Assembly: GCA_902790525.1 (NCBI GenBank)
Contig: CADASI010000004.1
Coordinates: forward strand, 1-40,514
DNA from: an uncultured Eubacteriales bacterium
GTDB taxonomy: Bacteria > Bacillota > Clostridia > Christensenellales > Aristaeellaceae
DNA length: 40,514 nucleotides
Reading direction: 5' to 3'
The first letter of the stretch is position 1, and each line of letters opens with the position of its first letter. The position numbers and the translations under genes were made by a program. Below the pieces are notes generated by a model. The model saw nothing but the letters and a program-made list of their open reading frames with translations. It ran no database searches and was not told where the DNA came from. Shown one piece after another: positions 4,403 through 5,975 of the stretch.

Positions 4403-4693
4403 ATGGCCGCAAAGCGGTTTCACGTATCAAAGCCGGACGAGCTGCGGGCGCTCTGCGAGTTTGTGAAGGAGGGCAAGCTGTCCAACATGGTGAGTGTATG
4501 GACGGCAACGGCCCGAAAGAACGGAACAACGCGCTGGGATAACGCAATCTATGTTGGTTTCTCTGGCGACAGGCAGCGCGTCGCCGAGGTTGTGCGATTC
4601 AGCGCGACCGGCGAGCTGGTGTACTGCGCCACGCTACGGTATAACCTGGCGCTCAACTGGTGCGAGCAGCACTTGAGGCCGGTTTACGATTAA
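4403..4693 (+). CDS. Hypothetical phage protein
   Basis: 96 aa, ATG at 4403. Not recognised. It starts with a basic segment (MAAKRFHVSKPDE) and contains an alternating pattern (VYCATLRYNLALNW) that suggests a small beta-rich fold. It is the last gene before the long noncoding stretch, and the first tRNA-like structure starts 5 bases after its stop, so they are likely co-transcribed. Confidence 0.55.
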   Translation: MAAKRFHVSKPDELRALCEFVKEGKLSNMVSVWTATARKNGTTRWDNAIYVGFSGDRQRVAEVVRFSATGELVYCATLRYNLALNWCEQHLRPVYD

Positions 4694-4698
4694 CACAT

Positions 4699-4822
4699 GG
4701 GGATTTAGCTCAGTTGGCAGAGCGATGGCAAATCCGGGGCGGCTATAGACGCATGGGGTTCGCGTGACCTTAGAACTTCGGTATGCCGTAGGGCGTCGGT
4801 TCAATCCCGGCAATTCCCACCA
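4699..4822 (+). tRNA. tRNA-like RNA with enlarged anticodon arm and encoded CCA
   Basis: The acceptor strands GGGGATT (4699-4705) and AATTCCC (4812-4818) pair fully, with one G-U at 4:69. The D arm (GCTC, loop AGTTGGCA, GAGC) and T arm (GTCGG, loop TTCAATC, CCGGC at 4795-4811) are standard, the variable loop AGGGC is 5 nt, and A plus CCA end it at 4822. Total length is 124 nt, about 48 more than normal. The extra bases lie in the anticodon arm: ATGGCA (4725-4730) pairs with TATGCCGT-type bases 4784-4789 and pairing continues after one mismatch, so no 7-nt anticodon loop is evident. An insertion or intron in the loop, or a tRNA mimic, are the options. Confidence 0.6.
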
Positions 4823-4823
4823 G

Positions 4824-4850
4824 CCCGCCCCTGACGCATCTTGGGGCGGG
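4824..4850 (+). other. GC-rich hairpin after tRNA-like unit 1
   Basis: CCCGCCCC (4824-4831) pairs perfectly with GGGGCGGG (4843-4850) around an 11-nt loop. It starts two bases after the CCA. No T tract follows, so it is not a normal terminator; it may be a structural element of the RNA or a processing/stability element. Confidence 0.6.
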
Positions 4851-4920
4851 GGCAAGACGACAGGTTCCCGATACTACCACTTGCCAACAACCATGATGCG
4901 CTACAAAGGGAGATAATCGG

Positions 4921-4941
4921 TGGCAGCCGGGAAAGACCGGC
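4921..4941 (+). repeat. 21-nt hairpin repeat, copy 1
   Basis: Identical over 21 bases to 5256-5276. Each copy contains GCCGG and CCGGC around a GAAAGA loop, i.e. a 5-bp hairpin. This copy lies just before tRNA-like unit 2; the other lies just before the thyX ribosome site. Confidence 0.8.
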
Positions 4942-4946
4942 CTTAT

Positions 4947-5033
4947 GCGGCATTGTTGTAAAGGTGCAAAGCCCGCTGGACGGTAGCTCCGTAGGCGGTG
5001 CAGGAGCCGGTTCGATTCCGACATGTCGCTCCA
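4947..5033 (+). tRNA. Second tRNA-like RNA with abnormal anticodon arm and CCA
   Basis: GCGGCAT (4947-4953) pairs with ATGTCGC (5023-5029), 7 pairs including a G-U at 4:69. The D arm is TTG-loop TAAAGGTG-CAA; the T arm is GCCGG, TTCGATT, CCGAC (5006-5022) with one C-A mismatch. T5030 and CCA (5031-5033) end it. At 87 nt it is about 11 nt longer than normal. The middle forms a bulged helix (4971-4976 with 4995-5001) topped by ACGG-TAGCT-CCGT, again without a 7-nt anticodon loop. GCTCC/GGAGC (4986-4990, 5003-5007) is an alternative pairing. Decoding function is therefore doubtful. Confidence 0.5.
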
Positions 5034-5081
5034 ATACACCGTGGACACCGGGAGAAAGGGTTGGCCCTGTCGATGTGAGGC

Positions 5082-5117
5082 GCAGTTCGATTCTGCAAGT
5101 GTGCGGGTTCGATTCCC
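5082..5117 (+). other. Two adjacent T-arm-like motifs
   Basis: GCAG-TTCGATT-CTGC (5082-5096) and GGG-TTCGATT-CCC (5105-5117). Both have the exact T-loop sequence TTCGATT of the second tRNA-like unit, but no matching acceptor, D arm or CCA is found around them. They could be T-loop modules in a larger RNA or remains of lost tRNAs. Confidence 0.5.
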
Positions 5118-5255
5118 TAACGCGCTGGTGCAATATCATCGACCGTCACGGGACAGATCGGTTGGGTTTTAGGAAGTCCTGAACGAAGCCCCACAAGCTG
5201 CATGGCGTTATTGCGGGTGTAGACGGATCACTCAAAAGGCAGTTACCAAACCGTA

Positions 5256-5276
5256 TGGCAGCCGGGAAAGACCGGC
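5256..5276 (+). repeat. 21-nt hairpin repeat, copy 2
   Basis: Identical to 4921-4941. It ends 15 bases before the AAGGAGG of thyX, so it might mark the 3' border of the structured RNA or affect thyX translation. Confidence 0.8.
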
Positions 5277-5306
5277 TATTTTCGCCACATAAGGAGGCAG
5301 CAGCCC

Positions 5307-5975
5307 ATGAAAATCATACAGGCGGGATATGAGATCATCCGCCCGAACATCGAGGACGGCGGCGCGGGCCGCGATGCCATTTATCGGCTGATCGAGCAGG
5401 CAGGCCGGACGTGCTACAAGAGCGAGGACAAGACCACAGAGGACAGCGCGGCGAAGTTTGTGCGCGGGCTGGTGAAAAGGCACCATGAGGCCATGCTGGA
5501 ACACGCCAGCATGACAGTGAAATTCACAGTTGACCGGGCCGTTGCCAATGAGATTGTTCGTCACAGGATTGCCAGCTACGCCCAGGAGAGCACGCGCTAC
5601 TGCAATTATGGCGCGGACAAATTCGGGAGCGAGATCACGGTGATCGAGCCTTGCTATCTGGTGAAGGAGACGAAAGGCTGGGAGGCGTGGTATAAAGCGT
5701 GCAAGGTTGCCGAAAAGATGTACTTTGACATGCTGGACTTCGGATGCCTGCCGGAGCAGGCGCGGGCTGTGCTGCCGCTTTCCACGAAAACGGAACTGGT
5801 CATGACCGCGAACATGCGGGAATGGAGGCACTTCTTCAAGCTCCGGGCCGCAGGCGTGACGGGCAAGCCCCATCCGCAGATGCTTGAGGTTACTGTACCG
5901 CTCCTGGGCGAGTTGAAAGAATACATGCCGGAGCTGTTCGGCGATATTGGCGGTGATGGCGATGGACGCGCTTGA
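5307..5975 (+). CDS. thyX: Flavin-dependent thymidylate synthase ThyX
   Basis: 222 aa. ThyX makes dTMP from dUMP with methylene-tetrahydrofolate, FAD and NADPH, without needing dihydrofolate reductase. The family signature RHRx7S is present as RHRIASYAQES followed by TRY at residues about 85-98; this is the FAD/dUMP site. FVRGLVKRHHEAMLEHASMTVKF upstream and the ANMREWRHFFKLR segment (near residue 172) are also typical. AAGGAGG precedes the ATG. In a phage it supplies thymidine nucleotides for replication. It stands just after the noncoding stretch and is followed by the small gene often found beside phage thyX. Confidence 0.95.
   Translation: MKIIQAGYEIIRPNIEDGGAGRDAIYRLIEQAGRTCYKSEDKTTEDSAAKFVRGLVKRHHEAMLEHASMTVKFTVDRAVANEIVRHRIASYAQESTRYCNYGADKFGSEITVIEPCYLVKETKGWEAWYKACKVAEKMYFDMLDFGCLPEQARAVLPLSTKTELVMTANMREWRHFFKLRAAGVTGKPHPQMLEVTVPLLGELKEYMPELFGDIGGDGDGRA

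Follow-up and report, generated by a model that had tools for sequence, protein, structure and literature searches.

A putative tRNA-punctuated cassette of structured non-coding RNAs in a tailed-phage contig

The window, by which we mean the whole 40,514-nucleotide stretch analysed here, belongs, as contig C4, to an assembly of an uncultured Eubacteriales bacterium (3.75 Mb in 199 contigs), and is a tailed-phage contig with genes for the terminase large subunit, portal, major capsid protein E, tail sheath, and tape measure protein. A gap lies between a 96-residue ORF (stop at 4693) and thyX (start at 5307), and an earlier note on this DNA had proposed that these 613 bases form a large structured phage RNA, either similar to ROOL or GOLLD or belonging to a new class. 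Structured RNA is indeed present, but it is organized as four units rather than one 613-nt molecule, with tRNA-like A, RNA-1, tRNA-like B, and RNA-2 following one another in that order upstream of thyX (Table 1), and the last structured unit stops at 5276, not at 5306.

Table 1. Features of the RNA cassette and of the gene that follows it, in window coordinates.
Feature	Position	Strand	Detail or basis
tRNA-like A	4699..4822	+	Acceptor GGGGATT/AATTCCC, Ala-type D-arm; Rfam tRNA, 46.3 bits
T-arm and ACCA end of tRNA-like A	4795-4811; 4819-4822	+	Sequence reading
RNA-1	4823..4941	+	Two hairpins with possible loop contacts, UGGCA 4921-4925, terminal hairpin
Terminal hairpin, copy 1	4926..4941	+	GCCGG-GAAAGA-CCGGC, UGGCA in front
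5-nt spacer CTTAT (T at -1 of tRNA-like B)	4942..4946	+	Sequence
tRNA-like B	4947..5033	+	Acceptor GCGGCAT/ATGTCGC, D-arm, T-arm 5006-5022, TCCA end
RNA-2	5034..5276	+	Alignments A1 and A2; covariation; model R1, 135.9 bits (the window is one of the 16 source sequences of R1)
RNA-2 closing helix ACCG/CGGT	5038-5041 / 5159-5162	+	RNAalifold on A1
RNA-2 insert domain	5069..5143	+	Helix 5069-5075/5137-5143 around two T-arms (5082-5096, 5105-5117)
RNA-2 conserved stem-loop	5163..5192	+	GGG(UUU) with (AAG)CCC around UAGG-AAGU-CCUG
RNA-2 pseudoknot	5198..5255	+	P4 5198-5201/5239-5242; P5 5215-5219/5229-5233; loop strand 5223-5226 with 5251-5254
UGGCA and terminal hairpin, copy 2	5256..5276	+	Stem 5261-5265/5272-5276
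Shine-Dalgarno-like AAGGAGG of thyX	5291-5297	+	Sequence reading
thyX	5307..5975	+	Pfam Thy1, E 1.5e-42; next gene, outside the RNA cassette

The gap had been described as free of ORFs, which is not strictly so, as it contains ATG frames of 112 and 84 aa on the - strand and of 49 aa on the + strand, a 113-aa TTG frame, and part of a 213-aa - strand frame that runs over its 3' edge. What does stand is the absence of a conserved frame in RNA-2: length changes among the RNA-2 homologues are not multiples of three and break the frames, and by comparison of these sequences there is no conserved coding frame across RNA-2, a reading that covers RNA-2, the frames in tRNA-like A and RNA-1 having one homologue only. 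Promoter-like or terminator-like sites were looked for in 4500-5450 and none was found. The many hairpins reported earlier fold no better than chance, with z = 0.34 for the whole stretch against 20 shuffles, 0.13 for tRNA-like A, and -0.35 for tRNA-like B; these values are indistinguishable from those of shuffled sequence, so folding energy was dropped as evidence for structure, which is visible in covariation alone.

A likeness to ROOL or GOLLD was not borne out, as cmscan of 4600-5400 against Rfam 15 returned tRNA alone at E ≤ 5, with no match to the ROOL or GOLLD covariance models; a homo-oligomeric cage is a further mark of those two RNAs. The stretch likewise matches no tmRNA model (Rfam, ARAGORN), no HDV-like Rfam model, and no other Rfam ribozyme up to E = 5. 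Among 18 related or thyX loci and eight named-phage loci tRNA is again the only Rfam family to reach its gathering score, and a distant blastn comparison of the stretch with named phages gave nothing at E 0.01.

The tRNA-like parts seen earlier are confirmed. The Rfam tRNA match of tRNA-like A spans 4699-4819 and rests on its acceptor, D-arm, and T-arm; an insert of about 55 nt occupies the place of the anticodon loop, ARAGORN does not call it, and the 5' part resembles tRNA-Ala genes in relatives. In tRNA-like B the anticodon arm is extended and lacks a 7-nt loop, and ARAGORN does not recognise this unit as a tRNA, either within the stretch or alone; closely related versions in L056, L386, and L390 retain both acceptor and T-arm. 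Neither tRNA-like thus has an anticodon arm with a 7-nt loop. The T-loop modules proposed in the note correspond to four T-arm-like hairpins, namely the T-arms of tRNA-likes A and B and two hairpins in RNA-2 (5082-5096 and 5105-5117).

RNA-1, between the two tRNA-likes, contains a hairpin at 4824-4831/4843-4850 whose loop (4835-4840) is able to pair with 4895-4900, and another at 4851-4856/4880-4885 whose loop (4868-4872) is able to pair with 4916-4920. A single homologue was found (L041, 79% identity over window positions 4790-4941), and some of the pairs, read by eye in these two sequences, are changed yet kept.

RNA-2 homologues were found by blastn in five other genomes, and a scan with a conserved 17-mer gave 30 viral stretches, 26 of which were judged real; L370, L373, L375, and L392 were taken for chance or coding matches and left out. 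Alignment A1 has 30 sequences and A2 is limited to the 16 in which the terminal hairpin is retained, and the near-duplicates L377, L383, L385, and L387 are absent from both but retained in the 33-member tRNA count given below. Of 396 genomes drawn from the host's order, six have a match to the RNA-2 model at E ≤ 0.001, a strong one in two cases (the genome of the window and G149); the five known RNA-2 relatives are not among the six, and were thus missed by the draw of genomes or by stricter filters. On these comparisons RNA-2 is a member of a phage and prophage RNA family that has no match in Rfam 15, and the suggestion of a large phage RNA of possibly new class has support for this 243-nt unit, through its homologues and its covariation. 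By eye, L372, L379, L388, and L391 have a UGGGAACUACGAUAGUGCCA-like conserved 3' hairpin in RNA-2 in place of the UGRCA hairpin.

The 30-sequence alignment has invariant blocks near CGyGGAC and at UAGGAAGUCyUGAACGA, and the closing helix includes two covarying pairs (UA:23/AU:5 and CG:21/GC:5/AU:1; RNAalifold, A1). The two-T-arm insert with its covarying closing helix occurs in some members, including the window, and own-sequence pairing of the insert helix is 6.57 compared with 5.36 for cross-pairing (13 sequences). In the stem-loop at 5163-5192, 100% of cells are paired and two of the eight pairs are changed on both sides; pseudoknot helices P4 and P5 have 93.8% and 96.3% of cells paired, both with two-sided changes. 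The pseudoknot loop helix has 62.5% and 55% of cells paired on two alignment counts. Read sequence by sequence, it forms 4-6 pairs in all 15 of the sequences that could be parsed (1 of the 16 could not), with a mean of 4.8 compared with 4.07 when crossed, and because of this we think that the low cell figures reflect MAFFT having set subgroups one column apart.

Across the 16 sequences, the six-helix pseudoknotted fold has 89.8% of cells paired versus 79.5% when shuffled, dropping to 26-54% when helix partners are slid, and five of the six helices have two-sided compensatory changes. Covariation, named in the earlier note as a check, gave a score of 0.305 compared with 0.131 ± 0.015 for shuffled alignments. 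Extra pair types are not raised over shuffles (121 of 500 reach the observed count). A free stem search for P4 gave a permutation p of 2.5e-4, with a score of 5 reached in 24 of 30 own sequences versus 52% of crossed pairs, and is weaker than the fixed-column counts because crossed pairs also yield stems.

In 21 of 33 members a tRNA or tRNA-like ends just before the RNA-2 core, 3 nt away in 20 and 1 nt away in one (18 of 29 without near-duplicates), versus 8 of 233 shifted control placements, none of them at 3 nt. No tRNA-like was found before the core in the other 12 of the 33 by a search that could miss short ones, and none is evident by eye in front of the G149 copy; L274 has a tRNA-like at 3 nt and was counted apart from the 33. 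CCA occupies this place in 26 of the 30 aligned sequences. At all five loci submitted to ARAGORN the preceding gene is a standard tRNA, these being tRNA-Met (L366), tRNA-Thr (L371), tRNA-Ser (L376 and L382), and tRNA-Ala (L380), and in L366 RNA-2 sits between tRNA-Met and a tRNA-Thr that starts 4-5 nt after the terminal hairpin. RNA-2 is 96% identical between the window and L038 and the preceding tRNA-likes differ, as expected if these are swappable cutting marks. L038 also lacks tRNA-like A and RNA-1, the element there following directly on the upstream gene, and the units seem, from such comparisons, to move as cassettes joined at tRNA ends.

Conservation of these RNAs next to thyX was looked for and not found. 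No homologue of the kind anticipated in the note was obtained from the 16 phage thyX loci fetched; none of the 16 has a match to the UGRCA hairpin element, which was looked for across the collected loci, and the RNA-2 model run on six of them had no match at E ≤ 0.1. As judged from genomic context, the link of the cassette is to tRNA and tRNA-like genes, not to thyX.

Both RNA-1 and RNA-2 close with UGRCA and a hairpin of the form GNNNG-GAAAGA-CN'N'N'C. A repeat finder located the hairpin GGCAGCCGGGAAAGACCGGC twice in the stretch, and with up to three mismatches the window has two matches versus a mean of 0.00 in 100 shuffles. Related genomes have two stem versions of this hairpin in which G-C is swapped for C-G. 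We scanned viral sequences with the pattern TGACAG-NNN-GGAAAGAC-NNN-CA, in which the three middle pairs are unconstrained, and all three are formed in 45 of the 45 matches listed from newly fetched viral loci (L174-L218). With the loci of the first, partly fixed scan included (L046-L125 and L174-L218 together, of which L174-L218 alone are free of the partly fixed stem), 94 of 94 listed matches are fully paired. Twenty-one stem combinations occur among these 94 listed matches, and 15 include a G-U pair, which favours an element acting as RNA over one acting as DNA; a DNA-level palindrome is made unlikely by the G-U pairs together with the strand bias of neighbouring T-arms described below.

A scan of bacterial genomes, in which chance matches are expected in number, gave 98 fully paired among 124 listed matches, in 94 of 120 loci; going by record titles, the paired loci include Pseudomonadota, Bacillota, Bacteroidota, and Spirochaetota, along with a Planctomycetaceae and an Omnitrophota bin. 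An exact hairpin match is also present in named phages, among them Medea1, mEp390, BS-TP2, ESP2949-1, Alexa, and Pokken, and phiEt88 has a match with one mismatch. When 50 records were searched whole with up to three mismatches, 39 showed a single match and the other 11 between two and six, and a reversed control pattern matched in three of the 50. A match in a haloarchaeal virus (L173) was dropped, its stem being unpaired by eye. A second contig of the same assembly, G000:C6 (L045), has three copies of the UGRCA hairpin, one of them divergent, and a tRNA to which ARAGORN assigns a 4-nt anticodon. A third type of RNA, recognised by eye in related phages (L056, L044, and L069), has AAGCGGTCACG ... 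CAAGCAGACCG-like blocks and the same terminal hairpin.

A variable stem abutting UGACA (score ≥ 6) is present in 26 of 200 listed viral loci, compared with 4 to 14 at offsets of 1-12 nt upstream; in the listed genome set the count is 7 of 117 versus 3 to 7, and the peak is not clear. Outside the RNA-2 family a pseudoknot beside UGACA is slightly enriched (29 of 279 versus 5.4% of cross-swaps), and the idea that one stands next to every element was set aside at this weak enrichment.

We listed 325 elements as distinct by exact flank, with relatives included (186 from the viral scans, 104 from the genome scan, 15 from relatives, 14 from the RNA-2 scan, and 6 from named phages). A tRNA-like, defined by an acceptor and T-arm, begins 0-13 nt downstream in 79 of these 325 listed elements compared with 37 of 1211 control placements, and the spacing is 4-7 nt in 63 of the 79; an earlier set of 200 listed matches, mostly from the viral scans, gave 47 of 200 compared with 39 of 1000. 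Sixty-six tRNA-likes lie at 3-7 nt and range from 63 to 144 nt in length, 44 being non-standard by ARAGORN; G is the first base in 48, T is at -1 in 48, and 32 have a CCA end, as in RNase P substrates. RNase P prefers U(-1) and G(+1). For 246 of the 325 listed elements no tRNA-like was found within 13 nt downstream, and tRNA cutting thus cannot form all of their 3' ends. A Shine-Dalgarno sequence and ORF follow in 44 of 200 listed elements (control 120 of 1000) and a terminator in 12 of 200 (control 18 of 1000). Within 400 nt of the 200 listed elements there are 69 upstream and 64 downstream T-arms on the same strand, about 6 being expected per side, and three on the other strand, both sides together.

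Several other RNAs were observed near these hairpins. A recurring tRNA-Leu-like RNA with acceptor AGTCAGG/CCTGACT is present in L175, L181, L189, L205, L229, and L194, with a long stretch replacing the anticodon or variable arm except in the short L205 copy. A tandem T-arm element, in which two GTTCGANTC-like hairpins lie a few tens of nucleotides apart, immediately precedes the UGACA hairpin in a range of different phages (L217, L233, L199, L232, L061, L082, L109, and L240). In Acinetobacter phage Alexa the UGACA element is followed, 33 nt from its first base, by a complete-looking hammerhead core (L171, 3029-3076; CTGACGA, GAAA, and stems I-III); this core scores 20.4 bits with Rfam Hammerhead_HH9, under the cut-off of 52. 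L183 has a hammerhead-like core (CTGATGA ... GAAA ... TC) on the sense strand 79 nt upstream of the element. Hammerheads in phages are already known, according to the available excerpt of PMC3088659. As a general partner of the element the hammerhead was rejected, with two complete-looking cores within 1500 nt of the 200 listed elements and none antisense.

The reading that we favour, with confidence somewhat better than even, is that the stretch represents a cassette in which phage non-coding RNAs are punctuated by tRNA-likes that serve as cutting marks. We observe the modules, their order and spacing, their covariation, and their spread, and from these we infer transcription, cutting, and the role of the 3' module. 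The cassette would be made as one transcript and probably cut at the tRNA-likes, most simply by host enzymes. Cleavage 5' of a tRNA-like by RNase P would place the 3' end of the preceding RNA 4-7 nt past the UGRCA hairpin, and tRNA 3' processing would free the RNA behind CCA. That the tRNA-likes keep the acceptor stem, the T-arm, and often CCA, and often have no usable anticodon arm, suggests that they are cutting marks and not decoding tRNAs. RNase P needs little of its substrate beyond the acceptor and T-arm, and uses the 3' RCCA. Dependence of cutting on RCCA is reported for a pseudoknot substrate in the part of PMC12710915 available. RNA-1 and the pseudoknotted RNA-2 would be the cargo, and the pseudoknot-UGRCA-hairpin a shared 3' domain, acting most simply as a 3'-end guard or as a docking site for a protein or the ribosome. 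Several results count against this reading: for most elements outside this phage group, and for 12 of the 33 RNA-2 cores, no tRNA or tRNA-like was found in the expected position, 4500-5450 showed no promoter-like or terminator-like site, and a single homologue was found for RNA-1.

The strict placement of the modules, with RNA-2 mostly 3 nt after a tRNA and the hairpin mostly 4-7 nt before the next, could instead mean that the RNA-2 core, the UGRCA hairpin, or both are a new self-cleaving ribozyme that matures neighbouring tRNA ends as theta ribozymes do, a reading that the many invariant bases of RNA-2 would also fit. The excerpt of PMC10879173 places the theta cleavage site at most 5 nt from the tRNA 3' end, a similar placement. 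However, no Rfam ribozyme matches up to E = 5, many elements and some RNA-2 copies stand with no tRNA found alongside, and an encoded CCA together with RNase P would be enough, so we regard a ribozyme as unlikely. Less probable again is its extension to an undescribed phage RNA-processing system, in which RNA-2 would cleave itself at tRNA-like 3' ends with the hairpin as its counterpart 4-7 nt before the next; if true, phages of many bacterial phyla would cleave their non-coding transcripts themselves, with no need of enzymes from the host. Were the tRNA-likes themselves the business end, as decoys for host tRNA-cutting defences or tRNA-binding enzymes, with RNA-1 and RNA-2 as linkers, the frequency of non-standard forms among the adjoining tRNA-likes (44 of 66) and their wide range of lengths would be accounted for. 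It is RNA-2, however, that is nearly constant between the window and L038 although the preceding tRNA-like differs, and standard tRNAs occupy the same place in other phages; we consider decoys improbable, a shade more so than a ribozyme.

The same low weight as to decoys goes to the terminal element being a nascent-RNA antitermination site, comparable with phage put or nut, by which polymerase would get through untranslated RNA and arrays of tRNAs. The strand bias among the T-arm neighbours is in keeping with this, as is a possible likeness to boxB in size and in the purine-rich loop, but no boxA-like partner was seen by eye, and in L059 the element comes after a tRNA group and directly before a terminator rather than ahead of an untranslated part; in L240 too it comes after a tRNA group, with no downstream tRNA called. 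To an eroded tRNA cluster without function we give hardly any credence. tRNA-like A does look like the 5' half of a tRNA-Ala with an insert, and folding energies are not below those of shuffles, yet five of the six RNA-2 helices have compensatory changes on both sides, terminal stems are fully paired across phages, and spacings are fixed, all of which points to selection.

The large phage RNAs that occur near tRNA genes are still puzzling. A family backed by covariation is added to them here, together with a small RNA element that is present in phage contigs and in genomes from several bacterial phyla, set at a fixed distance from tRNAs or tRNA-likes. The tRNA-likes near this element do not look able to decode. 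The punctuation reading predicts exact cut sites, so that a role of broken-looking tRNAs as cutting marks is directly testable, and some of the 'degenerate tRNAs' of phage genomes might be explained in this way.

That phages have structured RNAs close to tRNAs is already known; the RNA-2 family and the recurring hairpin were not found described, and neither a text search of a literature collection with hairpin spellings nor the titles listed from it showed a paper on such an element. Both may have been detected earlier without a name in the candidate-RNA motif sets of PMC2864571 and PMC8040213. In phages and prophages, ROOL and GOLLD are structured non-coding RNAs of unknown function that often lie close to tRNAs, and many GOLLD RNAs exceed 800 nt (PMC12286853, in excerpt). 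RNA-2 is also a structured phage and prophage RNA near tRNAs, but is 243 nt long, has no Rfam match, is often bracketed by tRNAs or tRNA-likes, and often ends in the UGRCA hairpin. With the HDV-like theta ribozymes, as presented in the excerpt of PMC10879173, it shares a fixed distance behind tRNA 3' ends in phages. It differs in having no HDV-like Rfam match, the comparison being made through Rfam models and not the refined theta motif. The lambda boxB, a phage RNA with a 5-bp stem and a purine loop, is set apart by description from the terminal hairpin, which has a 6-nt GAAAGA loop, a UGRCA lead, and an association with tRNAs. T4 stable RNAs C and D (species 1 and 2) are stable non-tRNA RNAs with no known function within a phage tRNA cluster and thus similar to the RNAs described here, the likeness being one of description and not of sequence. 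tRNA punctuation is known from organelle transcripts, and the 3' end of MALAT1 is made by RNase P at mascRNA; here too a tRNA or tRNA-like is proposed to act as a cutting mark that frees a neighbouring RNA, the differences being the phage setting, the degenerate state of the tRNA-likes, and the 3' pseudoknot-hairpin that the RNAs share.
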